Source: Fibrobacteraceae bacterium
Lineage (GTDB): Bacteria > Fibrobacterota > Fibrobacteria > Fibrobacterales > Fibrobacteraceae
Assembly (NCBI GenBank): GCA_017631885.1
Contig: JAGBSH010000004.1
Location: forward strand, 1 to 64,000
Reading direction: 5' to 3'
Length of the DNA stretch: 64,000 nt
Each line of letters starts with the position of its first letter. The first letter of the stretch is position 1. Under the pieces are notes generated by a model. That model had not been told where the DNA came from. It did not search any database and saw nothing but the letters and a program-made list of their open reading frames with translations. The position numbers and the translations under genes were made by a program. Shown here one piece after another: positions 1-58,109 of this stretch.

Positions 1-222
1 TAAATTCTCCGCCATCCACACTTGGTCTCCAATAGTTGTGTATTTGTATTCTTGTCCATCGCGCTCATCAACAAATGTTCCACGACCACTTTCTGGGCAA
101 ACTTTTGCGGCATCAAACTCTTCACTTGCACTAGAACTATTGTCAGAGCAAGCAATAAAAACAATGGATAATACACCCATAAACAAATATTTTGCTAATG
201 CAGAGAAACAATAATTTTGCAT
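1..222 (-). CDS. FISUMP-domain lipoprotein, C-terminus off the left edge
   Basis: Only the first 74 codons are present; the gene runs off the left edge. The N-terminus is a lipoprotein signal: a hydrophobic stretch ends in FIAC and is followed by SDNSSSASEE. The segment after residue 48 (TFVDERDGQEYKY, then VWMAENL) is the opening of the Fibrobacter succinogenes major paralogous domain, whose WMAENL motif is diagnostic. The start may be ATG at 222 or the internal ATG at 180 (MGVLSIVF), which gives a more typical signal length. It is a tandem paralogue of the next gene. The domain has no firmly known role; surface attachment is a guess. Confidence 0.8.
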   Translation of the reverse strand, partial: MQNYCFSALAKYLFMGVLSIVFIACSDNSSSASEEFDAAKVCPESGRGTFVDERDGQEYKYTTIGDQVWMAENL

Positions 223-326: not shown

Positions 327-977
327 CTAATTGTCTTTTACGCAACGAACAGAACGAGCGTTTCCTTTATAGTGATAACGCAAATAAGCACTTTCAACAG
401 AATAATCTAAAACAAGATAATATGCCATGTATTCATCTTCTTCACTTTCTGTTTCTGTCCAAAAAGACGCATTTCTGCTTATATCTTCAAAACTGCCATC
501 GCTATTACGCATACCTGCAGGAAATGCTGAAAATTTAAAATCATCTGTACCATTTCCCCGAATGGTGTACCAATCAGCTTTTGACTTTAACATTTGCCCA
601 GCAATTGCTTCGCCACCAACATTTTTCATTAAAAGTTCAAATTCCATTTTGCTTGGTAAATGCCAGTAATCAGGGCATACTTCTAAAGCTAATTCCCATG
701 CATAAAGCCTTCCATACTTTTCACAATTTGCTGAGGCATCATCATAGCAATACGAATCCTCAGTTTCATAGTTTAAATTCTCAGCCATCCATGTTTGATT
801 GCCTATTTTTATGTATTTGTATTCTTGTCCATCGCGTTCATCAGTAAATGTTTCGAGCACGGATTCCTGAGGTTCAGAATTTTCTTTTTCAGATTCATTT
901 GCTGAAGAAGAATTACTTTCTGAACAAGCAAAGAAAAAGAATGAAATAAAAAAGATAGAAATGGTAAATCTTTTCAT
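327..977 (-). CDS. FISUMP-domain lipoprotein
   Basis: This 216-residue exported lipoprotein has a signal peptide ending in FFFFAC (Cys18), a Ser/Glu-rich tether to about residue 44, then the Fib_succ_major domain to the end. Visible motifs are TFTDERDGQEYKY, WMAENLNY, YGRLYAWELAL, CPDYWHLPS and a C-terminal ARSVRCVKD. Several Cys residues probably form disulfides. An in-frame ATG lies further upstream (1028), but ATG 977 is chosen because AGGAG sits just before it and the signal peptide starts there. Its closest neighbour is the truncated paralogue at 1-222, so this is a tandem duplication. Family membership is clear; function is unknown. Confidence 0.88.
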   Translation of the reverse strand: MKRFTISIFFISFFFFACSESNSSSANESEKENSEPQESVLETFTDERDGQEYKYIKIGNQTWMAENLNYETEDSYCYDDASANCEKYGRLYAWELALEVCPDYWHLPSKMEFELLMKNVGGEAIAGQMLKSKADWYTIRGNGTDDFKFSAFPAGMRNSDGSFEDISRNASFWTETESEEDEYMAYYLVLDYSVESAYLRYHYKGNARSVRCVKDN

Positions 978-1511: not shown

Positions 1512-1540
1512 TTGACAATATTTTATCGTGTTATTATTTT
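1512..1540 (+). promoter_or_regulatory. candidate sigma-70-type promoter for the cobalamin riboswitch operon
   Basis: TTGACA at 1512-1517 and TATTTT at 1535-1540 are 17 bp apart, placing a start of transcription shortly before the riboswitch. It sits in the divergent gap between ybaK and the receptor gene. Only the -35 box is a perfect match. Confidence 0.45.
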
Positions 1541-1551
1541 TTCTTACAAAT

Positions 1552-1716
1552 TCCATGCCCTGAAAAGCTCTGCTGTAAGCAGAAGAGAATCCCGTGAAAT
1601 CCGGGAGCGGTCGCGCCGCTGTAAAGGGGGACGAAATCGGCATAAACCAATGTCTAAAAAAGATGTGAAGGAGCCGAAAGTAGAAAGATCCCTGAGCCAG
1701 AAGAACTGTGGAACCT
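1552..1716 (+). promoter_or_regulatory. cobalamin (AdoCbl) riboswitch
   Basis: The leader before the TonB receptor carries the ordered cobalamin riboswitch landmarks: the purine-rich AAGAGAATCCCGTGAAATC segment, GGGAGCGGTCGCGCCGCTGTAA (the conserved GCGGTC...GCCGCTGTAA core), a GACGAAATCGGC segment, and a 3' B12-box-like AGCCAGAAGAACTG. The real start codon follows at 1737 with AAAGGAAACG before it, so the aptamer is close enough to control translation start. An open reading frame runs through the aptamer from 1512, but that is read-through and not the gene start. Repression of the two downstream genes by cobalamin is expected from the family. Confidence 0.9.
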
Positions 1717-1736
1717 TAAACTTTTTAAAGGAAACG

Positions 1737-3728
1737 ATGCGCACGACGTCTTTCTATATTTCTTCTGTTGCCATAGTAACACTCTTTTGGTTTGCTCCAA
1801 CGCTTGCCGGCGAATATAGCGTGCAAGAACTAGGTTCTTCTGAAATCCGCGATAATTCATTTTTTGAAAAGAAAAAAACAGATGTTGAAATTTTGACCCA
1901 AAAAGATTGGGAAGGTAAAAACTTTTCTTTAGCCGATTTTTTAGCCAAACAAACAGGAATTCAATTTTTTAAACAAGGTGGTTTAGGGAGTTTCGAAAGT
2001 GTTTCTATCCGCGGAATTTCAGGCAAAAATATCTTGATTTGCATTGATGGCATTGCACAAAATTCTGCTAATGGAGGAGCTTTTGACTTAAGTAAAATTG
2101 ACTTGAATTTAATAGAAAAAATTGAAATTTATAAAAACAATATTCCGGCAAAATTTGGAAATGGAAAACTGGGCGGCGCCATAAATTTTATAACTAAAAA
2201 ATCACTTCAACATTCAGGAAAAATTCTCGCTTCTTATGGGAGTTATAATTTCTGGGAAACTAGCGCTCAAATTTCGGTTTCACCCAAAGACAGCTTTTAT
2301 ATTTCTGCTGGAATTTCTACAAAACATTCTGACAACGATTACGAATTTAAAAACAGAAACGGAACTTTTTATGACACTTCTGACGACTTTACAGACAAAA
2401 GAGAAAATGCGGAATACACTGAAAATTCTTTTTCTTTACAACTTCGCAAATTACACGCAAATGATTTCTTTTCCACATTTTCAATTTATGGTTTTCACGC
2501 AGAAGGCGGAATTCCTGGCCGCGAAGATTACCAAACCAAAATAGCATCTTTCAACGGCAATTTTTTACAATGGCATTATCGTTTAGAGACTCCTGAAATA
2601 AAAAGCGGCTTTTGGCTTTACCCTGGAATTTCTGGAAAGCTCAATAAAAACATGGGTGAATCTTATTACCCTTTAGACCATATTGGTTACCTTTCTTCAG
2701 ATTTTTTAGAATACGGAATATTGCATTTTTCTTTAACTCCAGAATTTTATGTTGAATGGAATACTAATTATTTCGAAAGTTCTGCGCGTATTGATTTGAA
2801 TTATGAAAATGGAATGCCAAGAGGCAATTCTACTGATTGGGAATTAGAACGATTTTCTTCAAATATCTCTTTTGATTTTTTATACAACTTAAATTCATTT
2901 TTAAAATTTGGCAGTAAAATCGGAACACTTTTCAGACAAGATGAAATCGACAAAGGCAAATTTATTTTACCCACAGGAACAAGAAATTTAGACAAAGAAA
3001 ATCTTGACGATTTTTCTTTTATGGGGAACGCTTTTTTAATTTTTGAAAAAGAAAAGTTTCCGCTTTCAGCAAGCATTTCTTTTGGTAAATTTTTCAGACA
3101 GCCAGAACTTATGGAACTTTATGGCGTGTTTCCCGGCAGCATTTCGAACCCTGATTTAAAAGAAGAAAATGCATTGCGTTTTGAGGCGAGCGCCTTTTTA
3201 GAAATAACACCTAACACCAATCTAAAAACAGCTTACTTTGAAACCCATTCTGAAAATGGTATTTATTGGATTACAAGCGGAACATTTATGAAACCCGAAA
3301 ATATTGGAAAAGCTTTTATCCGAGGCTTTGAAGCAGCGCTTGAAAGTAAACCACTTTCATTTCTAGAAATTTCTTTACGAGCTACATTACAAAAAACAGA
3401 AGACAAATCAAATTCAAAAACTTATAACGGAAACCAATTACCTGGCGAACCAACTCATTCTTATTTTTCACAAATCGGACTTTTATTTTATCCTTTTACT
3501 TTTCATTTTTCCGCGTCATATAAATCTGTAATTTATGGGGACAGGGCAGAAAAATTAAAACAACCGGGAACTCCTCATTACACGCTTTCTGTTTCTTACG
3601 ATTTTTTAGAAAAAAGTCGATTGATTTTTGCTATCGATAATTTAAGCGATGAAACTTACCGACATATTTATACGCCTTTCCCTATTCCAGGGCGAGAATA
3701 CCATTTAACCTTTATCCAAAATTTCTAA
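1737..3728 (+). CDS. btuB: TonB-dependent receptor, BtuB-like (cobalamin uptake)
   Basis: A 663-residue outer-membrane receptor. A signal peptide covers residues 1-24 (ends in LAG). The plug domain follows at about 50-155, with SLADFLAKQTGIQFF, SVSIRGISGKNILICIDGIAQN and the plug end FGNGKLGGAINFITKK. The rest is a beta-barrel of alternating strands ending in FIQNF, a typical C-terminal aromatic. The start was placed at 1737 because the riboswitch occupies the upstream frame and AAAGGA precedes this ATG. The riboswitch and the downstream propeller lipoprotein support corrinoid transport. The symbol reflects function by context; overall barrel identity to BtuB was not measured. Confidence 0.9.
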   Translation: MRTTSFYISSVAIVTLFWFAPTLAGEYSVQELGSSEIRDNSFFEKKKTDVEILTQKDWEGKNFSLADFLAKQTGIQFFKQGGLGSFESVSIRGISGKNILICIDGIAQNSANGGAFDLSKIDLNLIEKIEIYKNNIPAKFGNGKLGGAINFITKKSLQHSGKILASYGSYNFWETSAQISVSPKDSFYISAGISTKHSDNDYEFKNRNGTFYDTSDDFTDKRENAEYTENSFSLQLRKLHANDFFSTFSIYGFHAEGGIPGREDYQTKIASFNGNFLQWHYRLETPEIKSGFWLYPGISGKLNKNMGESYYPLDHIGYLSSDFLEYGILHFSLTPEFYVEWNTNYFESSARIDLNYENGMPRGNSTDWELERFSSNISFDFLYNLNSFLKFGSKIGTLFRQDEIDKGKFILPTGTRNLDKENLDDFSFMGNAFLIFEKEKFPLSASISFGKFFRQPELMELYGVFPGSISNPDLKEENALRFEASAFLEITPNTNLKTAYFETHSENGIYWITSGTFMKPENIGKAFIRGFEAALESKPLSFLEISLRATLQKTEDKSNSKTYNGNQLPGEPTHSYFSQIGLLFYPFTFHFSASYKSVIYGDRAEKLKQPGTPHYTLSVSYDFLEKSRLIFAIDNLSDETYRHIYTPFPIPGREYHLTFIQNF

Positions 3729-3749: not shown

Positions 3750-4853
3750 ATGAAAAAAATCTACTCTCTTTTATTTGCTGCTTTGCTGCTTGTAGCTTGT
3801 AGCGATAATTCTTCTTCGGCTAATGAAGAAGCAGAAAATACACAATCCACACAAGAATCTAAAATTTTTATTTTTGGGTCAGATTACACAACAGGGGAAC
3901 TTTACATAAATTCAACGGAACAAACATTCCTCTTTAACCAAGATTCTAAAGTAATTGCTGCTGGCGAAAACGTTTATGTTTTAGAGCGATATGGCGCCGA
4001 TAATGTTATCAAATTAAGTAAAGAAAAAAATGCTGAAAAATATGAAGTCTCATGGCAAATTGCTTTAGAAGATGCTTCTAACCCTAGCGATATTGTTTCT
4101 ATCGACAAAGAGAAATTATGGCTTTCTCAAGAAGGCGCCGACAACATTTTACAACTTGACGCTAATACAGGAAAAATTTTAAAACAAATTAATATTCAAA
4201 AATTTAAAGATAAAAATGGATTAAGCGCAGGCGCTGTTGATTTAGAAATTAAAAACGATACACTTTTTGTTCTTTTACAGCGCTATGCTTTTGATTCAGA
4301 GATGTTTAGTACGTATTACCCGAATACAGGTTTGCTCGTTTTATATAATAAAAATTCTGGTGAATTTTTAGATACGCTCTTTTTACTTTCTAAAAACCCT
4401 ACTGCAATAAAAATTTCAAATGACAAACTTTACATTGCTTCTCTTGGACCATATAATGATTCGTACGGAACCGATGCAGATTCATTAAGAGGCGTTGAAA
4501 TTTTTGATGCAAAAAATTCTAAATCACATTTTATAATTTCTGGAAAAGAATTAGGCGGCGGCATTTATGCTTTTGCGACAAGTGCAACAGAACCCATTGC
4601 TTTTGCAGCAATTTACAAATCTTTTGGTGACACCCCTTTAATGCAAATTGATTTAAAAAACAGTTCCAATAAAATAATTGAAGGTGTGCAAGATGCAGAA
4701 GGCGGGCTTGCTTTTGATAATGTTAGCGAAACTCTTTATATCGGCGACAGAACTTATGGGAACGAAAAAGTTTATACATGGCAAAATGATTCTCTTGAAC
4801 CCCTTGATTATCAAGGAACGCTCCCGCCTTATAATATGGCGGTGTTAAATTAA
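3750..4853 (+). CDS. beta-propeller surface lipoprotein, BtuG-like candidate
   Basis: This 367-residue lipoprotein has signal peptide MKKIYSLLFAALLLVAC (Cys17) and a Ser/Glu-rich tether. The rest repeats a blade-like pattern of short strands, such as NVYVLERYGADNVIKL, LWLSQEGADNILQLD, TLFVLLQRY and TLYIGDRTYG, consistent with a YncE-type seven-bladed propeller. It begins 21 nt after the receptor stop with AGGAG before ATG, so the pair forms an operon under the cobalamin riboswitch. In Bacteroides, BtuG is a surface propeller lipoprotein that captures B12 and passes it to BtuB; the same role is inferred here from context and fold, not from detected sequence identity. Confidence 0.75.
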   Translation: MKKIYSLLFAALLLVACSDNSSSANEEAENTQSTQESKIFIFGSDYTTGELYINSTEQTFLFNQDSKVIAAGENVYVLERYGADNVIKLSKEKNAEKYEVSWQIALEDASNPSDIVSIDKEKLWLSQEGADNILQLDANTGKILKQINIQKFKDKNGLSAGAVDLEIKNDTLFVLLQRYAFDSEMFSTYYPNTGLLVLYNKNSGEFLDTLFLLSKNPTAIKISNDKLYIASLGPYNDSYGTDADSLRGVEIFDAKNSKSHFIISGKELGGGIYAFATSATEPIAFAAIYKSFGDTPLMQIDLKNSSNKIIEGVQDAEGGLAFDNVSETLYIGDRTYGNEKVYTWQNDSLEPLDYQGTLPPYNMAVLN

Positions 4854-7686: not shown

Positions 7687-8631
7687 ATGTTCTACGAATC
7701 AATTAAAGTTTTGGATTGCACTATCCGTGATGGTGGTCTTGTTAATAAACACGATTTTAGTTTAGAATTTGTTCAACGTTTGTACCAGTTGTTAAACGCT
7801 GCTGGCGTTGACTACATGGAAGTTGGTTATAAAAATTCTCCGGGCATTTTTGACCCTAAAGAATATGGCCCATGGAAATTCTGTGACGATGATTTACTCT
7901 GGAGATTAAAAGAATCTTTAGAAAATCCAAAAATTAAGCTCGCCGTGATGGCTGATGTTGGGCGCATTAACTTAGACGCCATTAAGCCTGCTTCAGAAAG
8001 TCCATACGAAATGGTTCGCATTGCAAGCTATGTGAAAAACATTGACAAGGGAATTGATCTTGTAAATACATTCTCTAATCTCGGCTATGAAACAACTTTG
8101 AATATTATGGCTGTTAGCCGCGACAGAGGCCCAGAACTTGATGAAGCTCTTGACCAAGTTGAAAAAGAATGTAAAGCTGATGTTCTTTACCTAGTTGATT
8201 CTTTTGGTAATTTCTACCAAGAAGATATTGATGAATGTGTAAATAGATACCGCCGTCACACACAAAAAACTCTCGGCTATCATGGGCATAACAACCAACA
8301 GCTCGCTTTCTCTAATACGATTCAGGCAATTATCAAGAGAGTAGATTACTTGGATTGTTCTGTTTCTGGAATGGGTCGCGGCGCTGGTAACTGCACAACA
8401 GAACTTTTACTTGGTTTCTTAAAGAATCCAAAATTCGACATTCGCCCAGTTCTTGATGCGATTACCGAACTTTTCTTACCGCTTCGTGAAAAATTTGAAT
8501 GGGGTTACATTATCCCTCAAATGATTACAGGCGCTCTTAACTTGCACCCAAAAGATGCTATCGAAGTCCGCAAGACTGAAGATAAAGATAACTATCGCAA
8601 GTTCTACGAACGCATGATGAACATGGATTAA
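7687..8631 (+). CDS. DRE-TIM metallolyase family aldolase (HMGL-like)
   Basis: A 314-residue TIM-barrel enzyme of the HMG-CoA lyase / 4-hydroxy-2-oxovalerate aldolase superfamily. The N-terminal metal motif is LDCTIRDGGLVN (about residues 9-20; the family signature has D-x-T-x-R-D-G). GYHGHNN near residue 200 supplies the paired His metal ligands, and GMGRGAGN follows near 225. It lacks the C-terminal communication domain of DmpG and the regulatory domain of isopropylmalate synthase, so it is a stand-alone catalytic domain. AAAGGA precedes ATG. It is a single-gene unit with its own terminator; the substrate cannot be named from sequence. Confidence 0.82.
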   Translation: MFYESIKVLDCTIRDGGLVNKHDFSLEFVQRLYQLLNAAGVDYMEVGYKNSPGIFDPKEYGPWKFCDDDLLWRLKESLENPKIKLAVMADVGRINLDAIKPASESPYEMVRIASYVKNIDKGIDLVNTFSNLGYETTLNIMAVSRDRGPELDEALDQVEKECKADVLYLVDSFGNFYQEDIDECVNRYRRHTQKTLGYHGHNNQQLAFSNTIQAIIKRVDYLDCSVSGMGRGAGNCTTELLLGFLKNPKFDIRPVLDAITELFLPLREKFEWGYIIPQMITGALNLHPKDAIEVRKTEDKDNYRKFYERMMNMD

Positions 8632-8648
8632 TATTTTTTAAAACTTCT

Positions 8649-8681
8649 AAATCAGCCGCCCGTTGGGCGGCTGATTTTATT
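8649..8681 (+). terminator. rho-independent terminator of the aldolase gene
   Basis: AAATCAGCCGCCC and GGGCGGCTGATTT arms around GTT (8649-8661, 8665-8677), followed by a short T-rich stretch. Confidence 0.8.
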
Positions 8682-8720
8682 AATGGAAGAATTCTTTTAT
8701 TTTAGAAATTTAAGCAAACT

Positions 8721-8918
8721 TTACTTACGCTTTTTTCGCTTGCTACTAGGGCAATTTTCCCTTATTTGTTCCTTAGTATACCAACTCTTGTCGCAGAAGT
8801 TACAGCATGTTTCTGTAAATCTTGTTCCATCATCACATTTATACTTCGCAAAAACGCTCCCACCAATATACTCTTCATCTACTCTGTCGCAAAGAACCTA
8901 AGAAACCTGTTCAGACAT
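8721..8918 (-). pseudogene. small Cys-rich protein gene interrupted by an in-frame TAG
   Basis: On the minus strand ATG 8918 reads MSEQVS, then TAG (8898-8900). The same frame then stays open for 59 codons to TAA at 8721. The downstream part looks like a real protein: VDEEYIGGSVFAKYKCDDG, then TCCNFCDKSWYT, an acidic/basic helix, and a Lys/Arg-rich end, with five Cys in about 30 residues. AAAGG lies upstream of the ATG. I do not recognise the family. The simplest reading is a small gene killed by a nonsense change, or a fragment left by decay. The surrounding 8682-9186 holds no other gene I can support. Confidence 0.4.
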
Positions 8919-8960
8919 CAAAATGCCTTTATGGTCATTTTTTACCTTTTATTTTTCTGG

Positions 8961-9005
8961 TAATTTATATTAAAAATACAATTTTAGTAACAGCTTTATA
9001 AAATT
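8961..9005. repeat. 45-nt imperfect direct repeat, left copy
   Basis: This AT-rich stretch begins TAATTTATATTAAAAATACA and matches 10670-10714 at about 36 of 45 positions. The two copies bracket the exported-protein gene, its truncated partner and the repeat cluster. Confidence 0.45.
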
Positions 9006-9186
9006 CTGCCTAGTAACCATTCCCAATAAAAAACAATTTCTAACACAGCGCTCTTTTTCTAATAATTTATAGCATCTCGTTTCACTTTATGAAATTTATT
9101 TTTCCATAAAATCCAAGTAATTTGAGAATAAAACAATTCCTTAATTTTTATTACATTTTTTTCACAAGCGTCTCTTAGAGAAAACC

Positions 9187-13700: not shown

Positions 13701-13925
13701 CCGTGGTTAGAAGTTCCAGGATTTGTTCCGCCTAAAATGCAGGAAGCCGCCGCGAACGCGGCGGCTATAGGAGGTTTCTTAACGGCATTGCCTACTCCAA
13801 ATATTCCACAAGATTCTTCTTTAGCGCAAGAAACTTTTGACACAGCATCTTTTATTTTGCCAGAAGAAAATTTTGAGCCTATTGAATCCGAAAATGATTT
13901 TGTTCCTATTGAGGTAGAATTTTGA
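10773..13925 (+). CDS. class A penicillin-binding protein (PBP1-type)
   Basis: A 1050-residue bifunctional peptidoglycan synthase. There is one N-terminal membrane helix (about 5-28). The GT51 glycosyltransferase domain follows (about 70-240), with VAAEDARFFEHHG and RQGGSTLTQQTVKN. The transpeptidase domain has SSWK at about residue 481, SEN near 538 and KTGTT near 852. The SxN-to-KTG distance (about 314 residues) is much longer than usual, because a Lys/Glu-rich helical insertion lies between them. GGAGAG before ATG 10773 decides the start over the ATG at 10761. It overlaps the next gene, a lipoprotein that may be its cofactor. It acts in the periplasm, anchored to the inner membrane. Confidence 0.93.
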   Translation: MRVFSTLLKIFAAFALVGVIAFGIGYYVLFNVGLNKDPDGKFNRNTILETLSGETRVFYRDGEKRLGAFFDANHRIYVPYGEIPENIVNALVAAEDARFFEHHGFDLKGFLRAMLVNLKAGSLRQGGSTLTQQTVKNIFGREERSVMEKVKELRDAIRLERHFTKEQILEFYLNQFHVAGSGKGVAIAAQYFFNKELKDLTLAECAFIAGSVKGPFNYDPFAQRNEERKERALKRGEERVKYVLSRMLEDGYISKEDYELALAKPLSFEHGTFRYSVSTSLALIEEKLNSDFYQTIFEKEGIEDWRRAQLEIISTIDADYQDAAKRALQANISDLQLRLGGFALPTAEKPNRALKARIGDYLYGSLDSATYGKDGSLESLYLSFGQIKGVVEKSALDSLEKMVKSKPEKILAAKLGKGSVLLVSVLDSIAVNGFFRCKLETEPVLQGAIIALQNGEVLASQGGFHNTGFDRSFKAMRQFGSSWKPLLFALAFQYGWNYLDEIENDFNVFQYGNQFYFPRPDHKNKGDRVSIAWAATRSENIASIWLLEHLFDKLSLEDFENVLEQNNYAMLSDETSKTYFERLRDSLGLILKEQVKQEIQFEIAKEKFVNKLLTENNLEKARAVQNLWFGLGAELAKKSAKTNDLKEKLSHNYKHYESILRTRRLAENDSANILQSPDSIMLYPHFSLADFTEFSLLVEPTSEEINYLSPEYLRYWPDFKRSLAMADFSRFLHEIGIQSKLQKVQSMVLGANEVSLAEMTVAYETILGGKVFKGKDSDWGEPILIKEIKNSEGKIIFKNEIESKNILSDTVTSQMAAILHSVFENGTARSQYNNISLTSDEGRRLHFPAMGKTGTTNDFRNVAFLGALPEFNETKNGFAVDSVLAIGSYVGFDNNKPMKSGRTRIAGSSGGLPQWSAFAKDILKLRKDKEHVDFLSIQNLKTGKIPLVYTNLRGDLQVDAISGLASTSESEGYKTLPWLEVPGFVPPKMQEAAANAAAIGGFLTALPTPNIPQDSSLAQETFDTASFILPEENFEPIESENDFVPIEVEF

Positions 13926-15082
13926 AAATAGCGAAATACATTTTTATTCCTGTATTTTTCAGCCTGATAATTTCAGGTTGCGCCTCTTCTGTACCTAAGC
14001 AAGAAGTAGAAATCGCATTACCAGTTGAAAAAAATATTGCCCCTGTTGACTCTTCTAAAGAAAGTCAAATTCACGATTCAGTTTCTACGACTCAAGAAGT
14101 CATTTCAAAAGAAAAACCTGAAATTCTTGCTTTGCCTATTCCGCCTCAGACAGACACGGTTCCTACTATTCAGAAAACACCTAATCCTTTTTTAGACATT
14201 CAAAAAATTGCTGCCGAATCTTTTGCTTATGCACAAACACTTTATTCCGAAGGGAACATAGATTCTGCTATTCACTTTTTAGAAACTTTTTCAATGCTTG
14301 ATCCGCTTTGGAAATCTTGGATGACACATGTCAATGAAGATATAGAAAAATTTAAAAATGCTATTAATCAAGAAGCCGAAAAATACAAAACACTTTCTAT
14401 TGCTATTATAAACGAAATGGCTACTTCTGGTGATTACGGAACAATATGCAAATTAGCAGACAGTTTAATTGCTCTTGCTCCAAATGATTCGTTAAAAGTT
14501 TTTGCTGAAAATAAAAAACAACAAGCTTTCCAAAAAACTTTTTCTAAAGTAAAAGATGAAATGAAAAAAATTGAAAATCAAGCCAAACAAAGTGGCGACT
14601 TTCAAAAAGCAGATTCTTTAGCTAGTCGTTTGCAAATGCGCTATCGCGATTTTTCTGACACGCTCAAATTAAATGAATGGATAAATTCTATAAAACAAAT
14701 CGCTGACTTACAAAATAATGATAAAGATTACTGGGTAAAAAACAATCCAGAAGAACACTTACAAAAAGCAAAAGAATTAAATGCAAATGGTAAAATTGAA
14801 CAAGCTTTAGAAATTTTAAATAAATTAGTTTCTAGCCCGTTACGCGAAAAAGCTTTAGAAGAAAAAAATCTGATTGGCAAAGCTTTTTGTAAAAATGCAA
14901 GACAAAAAACTGCGTCTTTTTACACAAAAGCATTAAAACAAAAAAACAATGACGAAAAGAAAAAACTTATAAATCAAGCTATTGAAAATCTTTCTAGTTG
15001 TATAGAAAAATTTGAATCGCTTGAAGAAGCAAAACAAGCAGAAACAGATAAAAAAATCTTACTTGAAGAATTAAACAAATAA
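13922..15082 (+). CDS. TPR-like lipoprotein coupled to the PBP
   Basis: A 386-residue lipoprotein. Its TTG start at 13922 overlaps the PBP stop (TTGA), with GAGG just before it, giving translational coupling. The signal peptide ends LIISGCAS (Cys20). A Pro/Ser/Thr-rich linker runs to about residue 95, followed by helical repeats: QTLYSEGNIDSAIHFLETF and KELNANGKIEQALEILNKL have the TPR consensus spacing. The C-terminal third is Lys-rich helix. A lipoprotein partner for a class A PBP recalls LpoA/LpoB in Proteobacteria. A PBP-regulator role is inferred from the overlap only. Confidence 0.75.
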   Translation: MKIAKYIFIPVFFSLIISGCASSVPKQEVEIALPVEKNIAPVDSSKESQIHDSVSTTQEVISKEKPEILALPIPPQTDTVPTIQKTPNPFLDIQKIAAESFAYAQTLYSEGNIDSAIHFLETFSMLDPLWKSWMTHVNEDIEKFKNAINQEAEKYKTLSIAIINEMATSGDYGTICKLADSLIALAPNDSLKVFAENKKQQAFQKTFSKVKDEMKKIENQAKQSGDFQKADSLASRLQMRYRDFSDTLKLNEWINSIKQIADLQNNDKDYWVKNNPEEHLQKAKELNANGKIEQALEILNKLVSSPLREKALEEKNLIGKAFCKNARQKTASFYTKALKQKNNDEKKKLINQAIENLSSCIEKFESLEEAKQAETDKKILLEELNK

Positions 15083-19393: not shown

Positions 19394-21145
19394 ATGCGGC
19401 GTTTAAAAAAAATATTCTTCTTACCTGAATTTTATTGCATTTTACTACTTGCATTGTGCTTAATCTTTTTACACTTAGGCCAAGTTAAAATTGAAAACGC
19501 CATATATTCAAGAGCTTCTGAGACAGAAAGCATTTCTTTTCCTTTTGCAAAAAACATGCGTTCTCAAGAGCATTTTGAAATTTCCTTTCACGTTATCAAT
19601 AAATTCAATCAACCTTATGAATTAAAAGTAATTCCCGATGATTGTGCTGAATCTGTTATCATCAATGGAAACTTTATAAACCTTAAAAATTTCCCTGAAA
19701 ATTGCAATTACACGCAAGGATTTACTTTACCTGATTCTTTAATTTCTCCTTACCTTGTAGGGCAAAAAATCCACTACTCTTTCAATATGAAAAATAAAGG
19801 AGGTCCAGCTGGAATTTATGTCGAGCCAAAATCTAAATCTATTTTATTTTCTATTATCAACATTTCAACCATTTTATTGATTGCATTACTTTCTTTAATG
19901 GTTGCCAAAAGATTGGGCATGCCTAAAAAACTTTACTTATTACTTTTGTTTGGTATTATTATTCGCATTAGTTTTTTCTTGTCGACTCCATACAGCCAAT
20001 ACACACATGATGTTGACGGACATATCGGCTATGTTCAATACGTAGCCAATAATTTTAGTATCCCAGAAACAGATGATTGTTGGACTTGTTATCACCCACC
20101 TGTTTACTATGTCTCTGCCGTAGTCCCATATTTTTTAGGAACCTGGATTCACTATAACGAAATAAGAATGCTTCAAATTTACAGCCTTCTATTTTCACTC
20201 CTGATTCTTTTCTTTGGAATCTTATTTTTCAAAACTTTCCTTGAATCTAAAGCATTATTTTGTGCATCTTGGTTACTAGCTCTTTGGCCATTATTTATTC
20301 TTGTATCCCCAAGAATCGGGAACGATCAATTGTTCTACTTGTTCCACACTCTTTGCCTTTTCGGTGGAGCAAAATATTTATTCAGTGGCAAGGGAAAATT
20401 TTTAATTCTTGCGACTATTTCTACCATCTTCGCTTTATGGACAAAATCAACTGCTGTCGTCACCATAGGAACCTTATTCTTATTCATGATATGTGGCTTT
20501 TTTAAAAATGCCGAAACATTCAAGCCCAATCGCTCTGAACTCCTATCTTGGATACTTTTGATTTTGGCTCTCGTTTTATTTGGCTTACAAAAAATACTTG
20601 CCGAATCTTCTTTAGTTGGCAATGCAAGCGGTTTACATTCTGGCTTGAAAGTAGGTAATGAAGCCATCAATTATTTATTCTTTGACATTCGTTCTTTTAT
20701 TCTTGAACCATTTACCAGCGCTTGGAAAGATGGACTTGGCAGAGAATATTTTTGGAACTATTCTTTAAAAACATCTTTATTTGGAGAATTCACACTTACG
20801 ACAACCTCATTTGGAAAAACGCTTGCCACAATAACAAGCGTTTCATTCCTTGGACTTTGCCTATACGCTTTCCGCGGTTTTTGGAAAACAAAATGCCAAA
20901 CAATTCATTGGATTCTCATTTTACAAGGAATTGCCTTTTTTGCCGCTTCAATGTTCTTAAGAATCAAACACCCTTATTCTTGCAGCAACGATTTCCGCTA
21001 CATATTACCAGTTTTATTTAGCTTTTTCGCATTTATCGCAATCGGTGTAAATCTTGAGCAAGCTTCTTTAAAATGGAAAATATTAGGTTATGCTTTGATA
21101 ACCATTTTCACACTTTCGTCAACAATATTATTGCTTTCGATTTAA
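19394..21145 (+). CDS. GT39-like polytopic membrane glycosyltransferase
   Basis: A protein of about 583 residues with an N-terminal helix, a soluble beta-rich insert (about 30-140), then ten or so membrane helices. The first large loop after the second helix has the acidic pair in THDVDGHIGYVQYVA, the usual GT-C catalytic position, followed by CYHPPVYY, as in the GT39/ArnT/PMT-like family that uses polyprenyl-phosphate sugars. The start is ATG 19394 because AAGG sits 5 nt before it; a TTG at 19379 is also in frame. It shares a probable operon with GtrA and the FAD enzyme, and its stop overlaps the convergent small lipoprotein gene by 4 nt. Confidence 0.75.
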   Translation: MRRLKKIFFLPEFYCILLLALCLIFLHLGQVKIENAIYSRASETESISFPFAKNMRSQEHFEISFHVINKFNQPYELKVIPDDCAESVIINGNFINLKNFPENCNYTQGFTLPDSLISPYLVGQKIHYSFNMKNKGGPAGIYVEPKSKSILFSIINISTILLIALLSLMVAKRLGMPKKLYLLLLFGIIIRISFFLSTPYSQYTHDVDGHIGYVQYVANNFSIPETDDCWTCYHPPVYYVSAVVPYFLGTWIHYNEIRMLQIYSLLFSLLILFFGILFFKTFLESKALFCASWLLALWPLFILVSPRIGNDQLFYLFHTLCLFGGAKYLFSGKGKFLILATISTIFALWTKSTAVVTIGTLFLFMICGFFKNAETFKPNRSELLSWILLILALVLFGLQKILAESSLVGNASGLHSGLKVGNEAINYLFFDIRSFILEPFTSAWKDGLGREYFWNYSLKTSLFGEFTLTTTSFGKTLATITSVSFLGLCLYAFRGFWKTKCQTIHWILILQGIAFFAASMFLRIKHPYSCSNDFRYILPVLFSFFAFIAIGVNLEQASLKWKILGYALITIFTLSSTILLLSI

Positions 21146-21324
21146 ATTTCTTCAATATCAGGTTCAGGTTCTTCCGTTGGAGCGCAACCAGGAGCATTTG
21201 GATCTTCAGTGCAAATATCTGTTGTATCTTCTGCATTGCTAGAATTTGAACTTGAATCAGAGCACCCAAAAGCAAAAAGTGCCAAAAATAGAGACACAAC
21301 TAAAGTCAACCATTTCTTATTCAT
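21142..21324 (-). CDS. small Ser/Asp-rich lipoprotein
   Basis: A 60-residue lipoprotein with signal MNKKWLTLVVSLFLALFAFGC (Cys21), followed by SDSSSNSSNAEDTTD and an acidic end with two more Cys (ICTEDPNAPGC) and EEPEPDIEEI. Nearly the whole mature part is low-complexity acidic tether, with no folded domain visible. GGGAGAATCTT precedes ATG. It shares the Cys-Ser-Asp-Ser-run start with the cellulases. It may be a surface peptide or the remnant of a longer lipoprotein. Confidence 0.75.
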   Translation of the reverse strand: MNKKWLTLVVSLFLALFAFGCSDSSSNSSNAEDTTDICTEDPNAPGCAPTEEPEPDIEEI

Positions 21325-29985: not shown

Positions 29986-30927
29986 ATGAAAAAATATGGT
30001 ATTCTCGCTCTTATTGCAGCAGGTTCATTTATTGGTTGTGCAAGTGCTCCAAAACCAGATGTAAACCCAAAAGAAGCTCCTGTTGTTCAAGTACAAAAAG
30101 ATACTTTAGTATCTGCTACTGATCGTAAAAGTTATGCCCTTGGTATAAATGTCGGTCGTTCTTTAAAAGATGTTCTTTTAACAGGTATTGATTTGGACAT
30201 CATGCAAAAAGGTCTCAAAAGCCAACTTGATACCTCTGCAAAAGTTTTAATGACAGAAGAAGAAATTGAATCCACTTTACAAGATTTAGTTAAAGATTTA
30301 CAAGCCAAACGTGAAGCTGATGCTAAAGCTCTCTTGCAAAAAACTCTTGAAGAACAAAAAGCTTTCCTTGCTAAAAATGCAAAAGATAGTGGTGTTGTAA
30401 CTACATCTAGCGGGCTTCAATATAAAATTGAAAAAACAGCTGATGGCATTGCGCCAAAACGCGAAGATAAAGTAAAAGTTCACTATAAAGGTAGCTTACT
30501 TGATGGCAAAGAATTTGATAGTTCTTACTTGCGTGGCGAACCACTTGAATTCCCTGTTAGCGCAGTTATTGAAGGTTGGCAAGAATTACTTACTAACATG
30601 AAAGTTGGTATGAAAGTTAAAGCCTGGATTCCAAGTGAACTCGGTTATGGTGAAGTTGGAGCTCCTCCGGCAATCCCTGGAAACTCTTTACTTATTTTTG
30701 AAGTTGAATTGTTAGAAGTTCAAGCAGCAAATCCTCCTGCTGACACACTCAATGTTGCTCCTTTAGCAGACTCCACTCAACAAACGCCTGCTCAAGCAGA
30801 AGTTAAAACAGATTCTGCTACAACAACTCCAAAAGCAGAACCAGCTAAGCAAGAAGTAAAGCCTGCTGAAAAGAAAGTGGAAAAAACAGAGCCAACTAAA
30901 ACAGAAACAAAGGCTCAAAAGAAATAA
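29986..30927 (+). CDS. FKBP-type peptidyl-prolyl isomerase, lipoprotein
   Basis: A 313-residue periplasmic lipoprotein (signal to FIGC, Cys18; CASAPKPD). The N-terminal FkpA/Mip-type dimerisation domain (RKSYALGINVGRSLKD to about residue 135) has a helical linker. The FKBP domain spans about 138-246, with KVKVHYKGSLLDGKEFDSSY, VIEGWQELL and IPSELGYGEVG; it ends at LLIFEVELLEV. A Pro/Ala/Lys/Glu-rich tail of about 65 residues follows, unusual for the family and perhaps a wall-contacting tether. It assists folding of proline-containing exported proteins. AAGAGG precedes ATG, and a terminator follows. Confidence 0.93.
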   Translation: MKKYGILALIAAGSFIGCASAPKPDVNPKEAPVVQVQKDTLVSATDRKSYALGINVGRSLKDVLLTGIDLDIMQKGLKSQLDTSAKVLMTEEEIESTLQDLVKDLQAKREADAKALLQKTLEEQKAFLAKNAKDSGVVTTSSGLQYKIEKTADGIAPKREDKVKVHYKGSLLDGKEFDSSYLRGEPLEFPVSAVIEGWQELLTNMKVGMKVKAWIPSELGYGEVGAPPAIPGNSLLIFEVELLEVQAANPPADTLNVAPLADSTQQTPAQAEVKTDSATTTPKAEPAKQEVKPAEKKVEKTEPTKTETKAQKK

Positions 30928-32645: not shown

Positions 32646-32712
32646 TGATAAACTCCACGCATAAAATTTTCCTATTAAAATACATTATATATTTGAATTG
32701 TGTTGGATAAAA

Positions 32713-33888
32713 ATGTATAAATCGTTAAAAATCAATAGGTTGTGTGCATTTTTCTTCTTTTTTTTACTCTTTTTTGCCCTAATTATAGGTTTAAATGGTT
32801 GTTTAAAAGAAGAAATTAAAACGGAAGCGCCTACTCGCTCCCTGTTTTTGCGTTACGCCAAAAACTTCAAAATAGACACCTTACAACAAGGTGCTCTTCA
32901 TGTCTCGGTTCAAGTTTTTATTGGAAAAGATACTTCAACATACGAATATTTGTTGCTAAAAAACGGGGCATCCACCCCTCAAGGTTACACTTCTCTCCCT
33001 ACTATTCATGTCCCGATAAAACGCGCTGTTATTTTATCTGGAAGCCACCATGCGTACTTGAAACTTTTAGATGCAGAAAAGACTATTGTCGGCTTCAGTA
33101 ATAAAAAGTATGCCGCGGATTCATCTTTATTTAATCAAATAACTCTTGGAAATATTTTAGAAATTGGAGATGGTCCTTCTTTACAACAAGAAGCTATTTA
33201 TAATTTAAAGCCAGATGTTATCATTGCTTTTGCGACTGGAAGTGCTTTTGATTCTAATCTTGAAAAATTAAAAAAAGCCAAAATCCCTGTTCTCTATGTA
33301 TCCGAATGGCAAGAAACATCTCCTCTTGGCAAAGCAGAATGGATTTATTTATTTGATGCTTTAGTACAAACTAATAAAGCTCATGATTTATTTGAAACCG
33401 AAAGAATAAGTTATGAAACGTATAAAGATTCTTTGCATGCTTTAAATTTACCTTGTCCGAAAGTACTTTTAGGCGGACCGTCTTCTGGTTATTGGTTTGC
33501 TCCTGGAGATAATAGCTATACAGCTACTTTAATTAAGGATGCTGGTGGTTGTATCGTTTTTTCTCCTGATTCTTCAAGAGAACGTAGATTTTCTTTAGAA
33601 CAAGCATTTCATTTTGCTGAAAAAGCCCAAATATGGTTACACCCTGGTATCTATGAAAATCCCCAAATGTTACTCGCAGAAGAAAGTCGTGTTAAATTTT
33701 TAAATCCTTTTATAAACAAACGCATTTTCAACTTTGATAAACAAAAAGGAAAAGCTGGTGCGCTAGATTTTTATGAAAATGGAGTAACAAACCCATCAAA
33801 AGTACTTTTAGAAGTCATAAACATACTTCATCTAGACACTGCAAAAAAGAATTTGTTCACCTGGTATCGTAATATTTTCTATAATTAG
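32713..33888 (+). CDS. periplasmic binding lipoprotein of an Fe/B12-type ABC transporter
   Basis: A 391-residue lipoprotein (signal ending GLNGC, then LKEEIK) with the Peripla_BP_2 fold used by FecB, FhuD and BtuF. Strands RAVILSGSHHAYLKLL and IVGFSNKK, then ILEIGDGPSLQQEAIYNLKPDVIIAF are typical, as are KAKIPVLYVSEW and GKAEWIYLF. ATG 32713 is preferred to the TTG at 32698. No permease or ATPase gene is adjacent, so the transporter must be elsewhere. Given the cobalamin receptor at 1.7 kb, BtuF is one possibility; ferric siderophore or heme is another. Tandem Phe residues make the signal core unusually aromatic. Confidence 0.82.
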   Translation: MYKSLKINRLCAFFFFFLLFFALIIGLNGCLKEEIKTEAPTRSLFLRYAKNFKIDTLQQGALHVSVQVFIGKDTSTYEYLLLKNGASTPQGYTSLPTIHVPIKRAVILSGSHHAYLKLLDAEKTIVGFSNKKYAADSSLFNQITLGNILEIGDGPSLQQEAIYNLKPDVIIAFATGSAFDSNLEKLKKAKIPVLYVSEWQETSPLGKAEWIYLFDALVQTNKAHDLFETERISYETYKDSLHALNLPCPKVLLGGPSSGYWFAPGDNSYTATLIKDAGGCIVFSPDSSRERRFSLEQAFHFAEKAQIWLHPGIYENPQMLLAEESRVKFLNPFINKRIFNFDKQKGKAGALDFYENGVTNPSKVLLEVINILHLDTAKKNLFTWYRNIFYN

Positions 33889-45936: not shown

Positions 45937-47391
45937 TTAATATTTTTCAAGCAATTGAGCAGGGCATTCCACTTCTTTATAATTGTGATTAGGATTACCT
46001 GCTGCTTCCATCCAGTTAGCAAGGAACAAGCAACCTTCTTTAGCCTTTGAGTTATTACTGAAAACGCTATTACACTTTTGTGTTAAGCAACTCTTATAAC
46101 TACTTGCATTGTATCCAGAGGATTCTTCGCAATCACTTAAAAGACCACCATATTGTTTTCCTTGACTACCCCAACCAAAACCAGAGCAACCATTGTACAT
46201 ACCAACGCCACCACCAGGAATCATAATATCAAACTGACCCTTTTCTACATCTGTACCAACATTAGAAGCCATAACAATCAAAGTTTTACCTTTGAGTTTT
46301 TTCTGGTTTGCATCACTTGAATATTTTCCAGTACCAGTAAATTCAAGAGCAAAGCAACGACCACATTTACCTCCGTTAGCAGCAGGTACTGCTGCAAATG
46401 CAAGTGCTAAGTTATCATTAATAACCATAGGAATCTGGCTCAAGCATGTACCAGCATTACCGCCATCACACATACTCTTTGAACCAGCGTCATTAATTTC
46501 TTGCTGCTGAACGTTACATTGTTTTGCAGTATTACCACCAGCATTTTCTGTCCAAGAACAACTTGGTTTACAGCAATCCCAATAACGAGTTGCCCAACCA
46601 CTACCACTTTCACCGCCTGGAATGTAGTTAATTACAGGTGTTGTATTACTACTGCTTGCTCTAGAACTTGAAGATTGTTTTTTAGAAGAAGATGAAGAGG
46701 ATTGTGGTTGCTGTTGTTGCTGTCCACCTTGTTGGTTTCCACCATTATTCCAATCAGAAGATGATGATGGAGTTGGATTAGGGTTAACGTTTCCACCACC
46801 ATAATTAGGGTCAACAACACTAGAAGAAGATACAACAGGATTTACAGGCACGCCAGTATTAGGATCAACTACTACGTCGCCACCAGCAGAAGAAAGACCT
46901 GGAACTGGATTAACTGGTAAACCTGTATTAGGATCAACTACTACATCTGCAGAAGAAGATACGATAACAGCAACTGGATTGCCAGCGCCATCTACAACAG
47001 TTCCATTGTCAAGAGCGATGTTTCCTTCTGGAGTTAAAACGCCAACAAGAACACCTGTTCCATCTTTAATAGTTCCATCTGGGTTAATGACGTAACCGCC
47101 TGGAGTAACCAAGACAACTTCATTCCAATCAAAACCGGTTTCAAGAATAGCACCGTTATTAGCAACTAAGTTACCGGCACCATCTAAAACACCAACAGGG
47201 CGTTGCATGGTATCATAAACTTTACCATCTGGATATACCCAATAATGCCCACTTTCAGAAACTGCTGGGTACAATCCCATAACTACTTCAGAAGTAGGAT
47301 TGTTAGAAGCTGATGATGATTCATCAGAACAATTCCAAAAAACACAGGCAGCCAATAAGGCAATCAATGTTTTATAACCATATTTTTTCAT
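45937..47391 (-). CDS. GH45 endoglucanase lipoprotein (second of pair)
   Basis: A 484-residue lipoprotein (signal to FWNC, Cys21, then SDESSSAS). Residues about 40-170 are a run of short Asp-Gly repeats (VYPDGKVYD, VINPDGTIKDGTG, IALDNGTVVDGAG). A Ser-, Asn- and Gln-rich linker follows to about 255. The GH45 catalytic domain then has the signature ATRYWDCCKPSCSW (about 268-281) with the first catalytic Asp in YWD; the second Asp is in GQFDIMIPGGGVG (about 385). Many Cys indicate disulfides. It cleaves beta-1,4-glucan (cellulose) by inversion, probably at the cell surface. It lies 42 nt downstream of its paralogue. Confidence 0.92.
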   Translation of the reverse strand: MKKYGYKTLIALLAACVFWNCSDESSSASNNPTSEVVMGLYPAVSESGHYWVYPDGKVYDTMQRPVGVLDGAGNLVANNGAILETGFDWNEVVLVTPGGYVINPDGTIKDGTGVLVGVLTPEGNIALDNGTVVDGAGNPVAVIVSSSADVVVDPNTGLPVNPVPGLSSAGGDVVVDPNTGVPVNPVVSSSSVVDPNYGGGNVNPNPTPSSSSDWNNGGNQQGGQQQQQPQSSSSSSKKQSSSSRASSSNTTPVINYIPGGESGSGWATRYWDCCKPSCSWTENAGGNTAKQCNVQQQEINDAGSKSMCDGGNAGTCLSQIPMVINDNLALAFAAVPAANGGKCGRCFALEFTGTGKYSSDANQKKLKGKTLIVMASNVGTDVEKGQFDIMIPGGGVGMYNGCSGFGWGSQGKQYGGLLSDCEESSGYNASSYKSCLTQKCNSVFSNNSKAKEGCLFLANWMEAAGNPNHNYKEVECPAQLLEKY

Positions 47392-47433: not shown

Positions 47434-48942
47434 TTATAAATCTCCACCTGTATAAGACTTCCATTCAGAACGATATTGAATATCTGTAATTTTCGTTGTG
47501 TTAATAGTTGTCTTATACTTATCCACCAAATACTGCGGGCAATCAATTTCTTCATAGACGTAAGTTGGGTTGTCTGCTGCCATATACCATTCAGCAAACC
47601 ACTTACAACCACGCAACAAATTCGGATGATTCGGGAACACAAGATCGCATTTTTCAATAATGCAATTTTGGTAAGCTTCAACAGTGTTATCCCAACCAAG
47701 GCTTTGCTGGCATTCTGTTAAGAAACCACCAAATCCAGCACCAAGTTGATCTTTACTTACGCCAATTTGTGTGGAAAGCGCATCAAATGCACCAACACCA
47801 CCGCCTGGAACCATCATATCAAATTGCCCTACTTCTACATCATGGCCAATATTAGAAGCCATAACAATCAAATGTTTCCCTTTAAGTGCTTTGTGAGTCG
47901 CTTTAATATCATTTGCATGGTTACCACCATTATATTGTAAATGGAAACATTTGCCGCAAGCAGCTTGTGAACCAGGTGCTGCAACAAAAGCGTATGAAAG
48001 TGTATCATTCACTGCAATAGGAGCCATATCTGTGCAAGTAAAGGCACCATTTGCACCACCATCACTCGCTTCAGTACAAGCACTTGTTGTGCCTGCATAA
48101 CCTGTCCAATATTCAGAAATGTCTTTACTCAAAGTATATGTTGGAATTTCAACATCATTAATGTTACAATTGCGAGCTGTTGTTAAACCAGCTTGATAAG
48201 TTTCTTCTGATGTAGTATCTACATTACCTGGCCAAGAACAATGAGGTTTACAAGCATCCCAATAACGAGAACTCCAACCTGTTCCTTGTCCACCTTGAGT
48301 CAAAAGATCTTTATAAGAAGCTACCGGATAAGAATTGATATCAGAACCAGGAGAAACTACTTCTTGCATACTACTAGAAGATTCTACTGGAGTTACACAA
48401 TTGCCGGTGTTAGGATCACATTCTAATTCTGCACTACTGGAAGATTCTAGTGAAGGCTCAACACCTGAAGACAAGGTAGGTATTTCTATTAACGCAGAAG
48501 AAGATTCTGGACTTTCAACAGGTTTGCCTGACAAATCAACAACTGTTCCATCACCAAGAACAACATTACCATTAGAAATTGTACCCACTATTGTTCCATC
48601 TGGTAAAGATACATTGCCATCTGGAGCAACGATATAAGTTCCTGTAAAATAAGGAAGATTTTCTTTTACGATATCTGACTCTACAATATTGCCTGCTAAA
48701 TCTACAATAGTACCTTCAGTAAATGTCCCAACTAACTCACCAGACGCATCTTTTACACTACCATCGGCATAAACAAAATAACCACTAGGGGATATAACAG
48801 GATATTGATTAAGAGATTCTACACTTGAAGAAGAAACTAGATCAGAAACACCTGAACTAGAGCTCGAATTATCATCAGAGCAATTCAAAAAGCATACTGC
48901 TAAACTAAAAATTAAGAATATCTTAAAACAAGAATTTTTCAT
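47434..48942 (-). CDS. GH45 endoglucanase lipoprotein (first of pair)
   Basis: A 502-residue lipoprotein. AAGGA before ATG 48942 and the signal peptide MKNSCFKIFLIFSLAVCFLNC set the start, though the frame stays open further upstream. The N-terminal repeat region (VYADGSVKDASGELVG, NVSLPDGTIVGTI, NVVLGDGTVVDLSG) resembles that of the next gene. The Ser-rich linker is shorter. The GH45 domain begins near SSRYWDACKPHCSW (about 225-240), with GQFDMMVPGGGVG near 372. Catalytic Asp residues are kept. Compared with its partner it has an insertion of about 40 residues. Tandem duplication and divergence are the likely origin. Confidence 0.92.
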   Translation of the reverse strand: MKNSCFKIFLIFSLAVCFLNCSDDNSSSSSGVSDLVSSSSVESLNQYPVISPSGYFVYADGSVKDASGELVGTFTEGTIVDLAGNIVESDIVKENLPYFTGTYIVAPDGNVSLPDGTIVGTISNGNVVLGDGTVVDLSGKPVESPESSSALIEIPTLSSGVEPSLESSSSAELECDPNTGNCVTPVESSSSMQEVVSPGSDINSYPVASYKDLLTQGGQGTGWSSRYWDACKPHCSWPGNVDTTSEETYQAGLTTARNCNINDVEIPTYTLSKDISEYWTGYAGTTSACTEASDGGANGAFTCTDMAPIAVNDTLSYAFVAAPGSQAACGKCFHLQYNGGNHANDIKATHKALKGKHLIVMASNIGHDVEVGQFDMMVPGGGVGAFDALSTQIGVSKDQLGAGFGGFLTECQQSLGWDNTVEAYQNCIIEKCDLVFPNHPNLLRGCKWFAEWYMAADNPTYVYEEIDCPQYLVDKYKTTINTTKITDIQYRSEWKSYTGGDL

Positions 48943-57677: not shown

Positions 57678-58109
57678 ATGATGGTACGAGTTCTTGGAAT
57701 CGCTACAGTTGTTATGCTCTCTTCTTTTTTTATTTCTTGTACTCCAGAAGAGAAAGCAACACCTGTTTTACCTACAAAGTCTGTTGCAGTAGATTCTAAA
57801 AAAACACTTGCATCTGTTAAGTTTGATGCACCTGCTGCAAATACGGTTATTGATGCTGAAAAAGCAAAGAAATATGCTGACGCTAGTTCTGGGTTGTTAT
57901 TGTTAGCTGGACAATGGTCAGAAAAAATTGAAAAAGCAGCTGATCAAGAAAAAATTGAAATTCTCAATAATTATACTAAAGCTCAAGAACAACTTTGTCT
58001 GCGTTTAGGCCTTGCAGGAATGGCAGAATACAATTGGTTAGATTCTGTTGCCATTAAAAATTCTGCTAACGCTAAAGTTTTTGAAGCTGCTGGTGTAAAA
58101 TTACCATAA
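57678..58109 (+). CDS. small lipoprotein, unknown function
   Basis: A 143-residue lipoprotein. A signal peptide ends FFISC (Cys21), then TPEEKATPVL. A Lys/Ala-rich helical region follows (EKAKKYADASSGLLLLAGQWSEKIEKAADQEKIEILNNY), and the end is a short helix (EAAGVKLP). AGAGGAG lies upstream of ATG. No domain is recognised; it might be a small periplasmic helical bundle. The terminator at 58136 closes it. Confidence 0.75.
   Translation: MMVRVLGIATVVMLSSFFISCTPEEKATPVLPTKSVAVDSKKTLASVKFDAPAANTVIDAEKAKKYADASSGLLLLAGQWSEKIEKAADQEKIEILNNYTKAQEQLCLRLGLAGMAEYNWLDSVAIKNSANAKVFEAAGVKLP

Follow-up and report, generated by a model that had tools for sequence, protein, structure and literature searches.

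A putative surface-export signal directly after the lipidated cysteine of Fibrobacteraceae lipoproteins

Lipoproteins of the Fibrobacteraceae which work outside the cell probably bear a surface-export signal directly after their lipidated cysteine, and this is most likely a signal similar to the LES, the acidic export signal of Bacteroidota, in another phylum. In the putative signal, +2 is a small residue (Ser, Gly or Thr), Asp or Glu stands at +3 and/or +4, and Lys and Arg are absent up to +6; a tether rich in Ser, Thr, Pro and Asn follows. Sec export, lipidation and cleavage would precede the reading of the acidic triplet by a sorting machinery, which would then direct the lipoprotein to the outer rather than the inner leaflet of the outer membrane, as for the LES in Bacteroidota; the tether would keep the catalytic or binding domain clear of the membrane.

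Motif-bearing lipoproteins of the window

We analysed a stretch of 64,000 nucleotides ("the window") in which six lipoproteins begin their mature part with CS[DE] and a Ser-rich stretch and four periplasmic-type lipoproteins lack this motif (Table 1). Both sets of N-termini are exactly as the first-pass annotation had claimed, which was established by translation of the genes. In all six motif-positive proteins a hydrophobic signal peptide containing Lys or Arg, then a lipobox, lies upstream of the motif. Gene 1 was assigned to FISUMP by a sequence block common with gene 327, where PF09603 matched; as genes 1 and 327 form a pair of FISUMP paralogues and genes 45937 and 47434 both encode GH45, the six cases amount to about four independent families. 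The Ser codons of the motif are mixed (TCT, AGT, TCA, AGC and TCG), which rules out a DNA microsatellite as the origin of the Ser-run.

Table 1 Features of the window, with positions counted from its first nucleotide.
Feature	Position	Strand	Mature N-terminus and details	Basis
FISUMP-type lipoprotein, truncated by window edge	1..222	-	CSDNSSSASEE; Cys codon 148-150	translation, lipobox call
FISUMP lipoprotein	327..977	-	CSESNSSSAN; Cys codon 924-926	PF09603, translation, lipobox call
TonB-dependent receptor, BtuB-like, partner of gene 3750	1512..3728	+		Pfam Plug; weak tblastn to btuB records; riboswitch
Cobalamin riboswitch	1536..1727	+	precedes TonB receptor and BtuG-like pair	Rfam RF00174, 79 bits
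BtuG-like beta-propeller lipoprotein	3750..4853	+	signal peptide MKKIYSLLFAALLLVA; mature CSDNSSSANEE; Cys codon at 3798	translation, lipobox call, orthologue profile
Motif CSDNSSSA of gene 3750	3798..3821	+		translation, codon inspection
TPR lipoprotein, motif-negative	13922..15082	+	CASSVPKQ	translation, Pfam
60-aa lipoprotein, orphan	21142..21324	-	CSDSSSNSS; Cys codon 21262-21264	translation, lipobox call
FKBP lipoprotein, motif-negative	29986..30927	+	CASAPKPD	translation, Pfam
Periplasmic-binding-protein lipoprotein, motif-negative	32698..33888	+	CLKEEIKT	PF01497, translation
GH45 lipoprotein	45937..47391	-	CSDESSSAS; Cys codon 47329-47331	PF02015, translation, lipobox call
GH45 lipoprotein	47434..48942	-	CSDDNSSSSS; Cys codon 48880-48882	PF02015, translation, lipobox call
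Lipoprotein without known domain, motif-negative	57678..58109	+	CTPEEKAT	translation, Pfam

The label "BtuG-like", given earlier to gene 3750, is supported by two lines of evidence: a profile built from 14 orthologues matched YncE/BtuG-type propellers in the PDB, including 8okv, 8p97 and 3dsm, and a cobalamin riboswitch lies ahead of the neighbouring receptor gene. 8OKV and 8P97 are solved BtuG structures, and 3DSM is the molecular-replacement model (PMC10404256). Phmmer with the gene 3750 sequence alone found no match among the structures, and a single-sequence fold of the protein was set aside as too poor (pLDDT 46). Matches to gene 3750 were present in 34 of the 41 genomes searched. As expected of a BtuG/YncE-type protein, the propeller is encoded with a TonB receptor (Plug domain) under the cobalamin riboswitch, and given this riboswitch the two genes are likely to be a B12 uptake pair. 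It should be noted that the riboswitch overlaps the start of the listed receptor ORF, which probably places the true start of the receptor further downstream. The BtuG of Bacteroides is a surface lipoprotein (PMC10404256).

Association of the motif with predicted function

The window is contig 9 of a 2.37 Mb assembly (32 contigs), which is assigned to the Fibrobacteraceae through its FISUMP and GH45 families and its relatives. Lipoproteins were sampled from stretches covering about 1.21 Mb, about half, of this assembly, and were called with a custom lipobox script rather than SignalP, which gave 95 candidates, 81 of them above the working score. Domains were assigned by Pfam, and each lipoprotein was placed in a class according to what its domain does, so that "extracellular" is a prediction from the domain. 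The periplasmic-type class comprised Pal, TPR, LptE, LpoB, LytR_C, HlyD, solute-binding, redoxin, FKBP, TraB, metallo-beta-lactamase, M16 and lipocalin proteins, and the extracellular-type class GH5, GH8, GH45, DUF4832/GH42-like, esterase, LamG and BtuG-like proteins; FISUMP was kept apart as a class of its own. Most GH5 cellulases carry SPase-I signals and no lipobox, and GH5 was nearly uninformative as a positive class; a search with PF00691 returned mainly OmpA proteins which are not lipoproteins. The core rule, B, asks for S/G/T/D at +2, D/E at +3 or +4 and no K/R at +2 to +6. A slightly different rule, M, was written down with its prediction before any stretch of two genomes of other genera (G017 and G003) was fetched; from these, 0.8 Mb was taken, 53 lipoproteins were called and Pfam was run on 40. 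A scan of public genomes added 114 GH45 lipoproteins, 84 of which were left after a redundancy filter. GH45 and FISUMP are large paralogous families, and many of the sequences in the counts are non-independent.

Most of the glycosidase, BtuG-like, CotH and FISUMP lipoproteins surveyed bear the motif. Within the genome itself, rule B was fitted by 7 of 10 glycosidase, esterase, lectin and BtuG lipoproteins and by all six FISUMP proteins, compared to none of the 17 Pfam-defined periplasmic-type lipoproteins (P = 1e−4 without FISUMP). Among orthologues across the family the counts were 26/39 for GH45 and BtuG-like proteins vs 0/48 for BamD, FKBP and LptE, and after collapsing to families 7/9 vs 0/20 (P = 2e−5). 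Across three sets none of 73 periplasmic-type lipoproteins fitted the rule (0/17, 0/8 and 0/48, with classes assigned by domain), and a random draw of residues from mature lipoproteins gave a fit in 5% of cases. The motif is present in seven or more unrelated domain families.

In G017 and G003, rule M picked out 8 of 15 extracellular-type and none of eight periplasmic-type lipoproteins (two-sided P = 0.02). The eight were Pal, TPR, LptE (recognised through a near-identical sequence), a transglycosylase, PPIC, two solute-binding proteins and HlyD. Altogether 13 of the 53 lipoproteins fitted M: six FISUMP, one GH5, one CotH, two carboxypeptidase-regulatory-like proteins and three without a family. 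With rule B the figures are 11/15 vs 0/8, which are not strictly held out since this rule was finalised only after the data from these genomes had been seen.

Between about a quarter and a third of the extracellular-type lipoproteins are without the full motif, including GH8 (CTSSDSSE), LamG (CTTSSSGT) and some BtuG-like and FISUMP proteins; such exceptions suggest that the putative signal is loose or that other routes exist. Two observations had been named in the first-pass annotation as fatal to its claim, namely periplasmic lipoproteins with the motif and exposed cellulases without it. None of the surveyed lipoproteins with the motif was clearly periplasmic, and no case of the second kind was found, as the SPase-I cellulases without the motif are not lipoproteins. 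The claim that surface lipoproteins are marked by what follows the lipid Cys held at the genome scale, among orthologues and in the test written beforehand, with "surface" predicted from domain function, but its Ser-run turned out not to be the conserved part.

Two histidine-phosphatase-related lipoproteins also carry the motif: one (L387, 6557-7591, minus strand; CSDDSSST) has weak phosphoglycerate-mutase similarity and adjoins a type IV pilus operon, and the second is a histidine-phosphatase lipoprotein (L011, 4549-5472) which begins CDDSSSST. Outside the Fibrobacteraceae, BtuG-like lipoproteins (L043, L049, L050 and L051) start with C-[ILA], with the acid mostly later; from these few sequences, the code may be limited to the Fibrobacterales.

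An acidic core, a Ser-rich tether and rival explanations

The acidic residues are confined to particular positions. In 55 extracellular-type sequences, 65 acids were observed at +3/+4, compared to 25.9 ± 4.2 after within-protein shuffling of +2 to +15, and acid content was 59% at +3/+4, 10% at +5 to +8 and 19% beyond. Conservation follows the same boundary: in the 84 GH45 lipoproteins, information is 2.7, 2.1 and 2.0 bits at +2, +3 and +4 and at most 1.2 afterwards, with S/G/T at +2 in 82 sequences and D/E in 75% at +3 and 73% at +4. From +5 to +8 Ser is common yet not conserved, and Thr, Ala, Pro and Asn alternate with it. The conserved core can therefore be read as C-[S/G/T]-[D/E]-[D/E], with the acid at +3/+4. 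The signature proposed initially (CS[DE] with at least three Ser) was too narrow, being found in 8 of 39 extracellular orthologues and 2 of the 53 G017/G003 lipoproteins, and its Ser-run has to be reclassified as a common but replaceable tether, with conservation ending sharply after +4. As +2 to +4 are conserved and the later Ser are variable, the signature is two things, an acidic code and a hydrophilic tether which in the window is Ser-rich.

This division bears on the suggestion that the N-terminus has no targeting role and serves as a flexible and soluble tether, perhaps with O-glycosylation, of the acidic, Ser-rich kind which extracellular proteins have as linkers. Such a reading does account for the Ser-run half of the earlier signature, and it is in keeping with the 157 internal Ser-runs which act as linkers in the surveyed lipoproteins and with the variable Ser/Thr/Pro content past +5. 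As an explanation of the whole N-terminus we think it improbable, since acids cluster at +3/+4 far above shuffles, conservation stops after +4, and Ser-runs in the surveyed lipoproteomes are preceded by an acid in 82% of N-terminal cases vs 31% of internal ones. An origin in shared ancestry, or in the swapping of signal-peptide modules among paralogues without selection on the motif, would suit the size and non-independence of the FISUMP and GH45 families. It is hardly credible for a motif found in so many unrelated domain families, and within GH45 conservation is limited to +2 to +4, the remaining tether having diverged. Proteobacterial Lol sorting is governed by residues +2 to +4, and the motif might accordingly mark outer- as opposed to inner-membrane lipoproteins and no more: LolA is present, and in most solute-binding and thioredoxin-type lipoproteins the +2 residue is N, K, L or D. 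We regard this as very improbable, as Pal (CSNPPP), LptE (CYSFTA) and BamD (CSS/CANT), which are outer-membrane and periplasm-facing, are without the motif, so that the dividing line runs inside the outer membrane, between two groups of its lipoproteins. An Asn at +2 is seen repeatedly among solute-binding, thioredoxin, PPIC and transglycosylase lipoproteins (CNEE, CNDN, CNEQ, CNDQ, CNGI and CNAC; L067, L078, L019, L294 and L286), which makes these a candidate inner-membrane retention class in Fibrobacter.

The main rival is a type II secretion route, in which the acidic, Ser and Gly residues would serve as a Lol-avoidance and sorting motif and the lipoprotein would be kept in the inner membrane for later transfer to the surface by a T2SS-like machine, as for pullulanase of Klebsiella and InvL of Acinetobacter. 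The Fibrobacter lipoproteins do have a stretch rich in Asp, Asn, Gly or Ser after the Cys, and the mature N-terminus of pullulanase, CDNSSSSSTSG (PDB 2fgz), is strikingly similar to CSDNSSSA. Acinetobacter T2SS lipoproteins bear GGG or ND(N/D), others a hybrid G/D motif, the Gly/Ser or Asn/Asp motifs after the Cys need GspN, and in Pseudomonas Lol avoidance is signalled by GDD (PMC12802150). A type II pathway was also reported in the S85 genome paper (PMC3079729), and of the two secretins in our genome the second has pilin-like neighbours. However, GspN (PF01203) was found in none of 25 Fibrobacterota genomes with the E. coli control positive, although its fold is AsmA-like and a divergent copy could be missed. 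Both secretins of the genome score better as PilQ than as GspD and their neighbours gave no T2SS family matches, and an acid at +2, which PulA has, occurs in just 2% of GH45 lipoproteins. On balance we consider this route unlikely, if less so than the other alternatives, and prefer the LES-like surface-export signal. The second secretin locus itself (L388, 7791-12656 on contig C11 of the genome, G000) has the secretin gene at 7791-9572 with pilin-like and unassigned neighbours, lies apart from a PilMNOPQ-like operon on C4 and may represent either a minimal T2SS or a second pilus.

The Fibrobacter envelope and known surface-lipoprotein systems

How cellulases are held on the Fibrobacter cell is a long-standing question. 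None of the S85 cellulases had a membrane-anchoring domain according to the genome paper, which spoke against their attachment to the membrane and marked GH45 Fisuc_1425 and Fisuc_1426 "No" in a column which is apparently for signal peptides (PMC3079729); nor did a later paper on the proteome name a typical one for the enzymes (PMC6851124). GH45 FSU_1893 was detected in the S85 cell envelope, slightly up on cellulose (PMC6851124), and the FISUMP protein Fisuc_2249 was detected in S85 by surface biotinylation (PMC4619616). It should be noted that BamD (YfiO) was in the same biotinylated fraction (PMC4619616), so this dataset is not surface-specific. A lipid anchor with a surface-type code would explain both the envelope GH45 and the biotinylated FISUMP detections, and the predicted GH45 lipoproteins with the motif offer a concrete anchor for part of the cellulases. 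More broadly, and more tentatively, with odds that we put a little below even, the Fibrobacterota may have a surface-lipoprotein pathway with essentially the N-terminal code of Bacteroidota, either FCB-wide, and so older than Bacteroidota, or re-invented, which anchors some of their cellulases. If the sorting code were common to a second phylum, it would open a new way to the machine by which surface lipoproteins of the FCB group are flipped, and could be used to predict surface proteins in a phylum which has been little studied. Our literature search found no paper which links a lipoprotein export signal with Fibrobacter.

Several known systems can be compared with this putative signal. The basic terminal domain (BTD/FPm-1) and T9SS-type tails have likewise been proposed to attach Fibrobacter enzymes to the surface (PMC3079729, PMC6851124) but are C-terminal and on other enzymes, and GH45 FSU_1893 is listed with neither (PMC6851124, Table 1). 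The T2SS/GspN lipoproteins PulA and InvL share the Asp/Asn/Gly/Ser-rich motif after the Cys and a polysaccharide-degrading cargo (PMC12802150), and differ in the motif itself (acid at +2 in PulA; GGG or ND(N/D) in Acinetobacter) and in GspN, which was not found in Fibrobacter. The Slam family (PF04575) had no match in 25 genomes, and the control genomes gave no match either. Slam-dependent lipoproteins of Neisseria are also surface lipoproteins of a diderm, but their signal lies in the folded cargo and not in the first residues.

A close likeness is that to the LES, which takes the forms QKDDE in Capnocytophaga, SDDDD in Bacteroides fragilis and SDDFE in Flavobacterium (PMC5080379). An FKBP lipoprotein of another genome (L223, G006), of the periplasmic class, has the mature start CKDDSVKKE, which resembles the Capnocytophaga-type K-(D/E)2 signal; the BAM complex of Bacteroidota includes a surface FKBP (PMC12578637). 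The export machinery which reads the LES in Bacteroidota is unidentified (PMC11885536). The Fibrobacter motif differs from the LES in belonging to another phylum, in having usually one or two acids followed by Ser/Thr rather than by more acids, and in often having Gly or Thr at +2. Like the LES, it lies within about six residues of the Cys, has D/E at +3/+4 after a polar +2, and is absent from periplasm-facing lipoproteins (as assigned by domain). Both stand directly after the lipid Cys, and the B. fragilis form is built in the same way: in SDDDD, which is borne by proteinase K-sensitive lipoproteins of this species, +2 is Ser and the Asp are mostly at +3/+4, and the sequence acted as an export signal for a reporter once transferred to Capnocytophaga (PMC5080379). 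The analogy with the acidic signal of Bacteroidetes drawn in the first-pass annotation is thus closer than had been stated there, and it extends to the cargo, since the LES is borne by surface glycosidases and B12 lipoproteins (PMC10404256).
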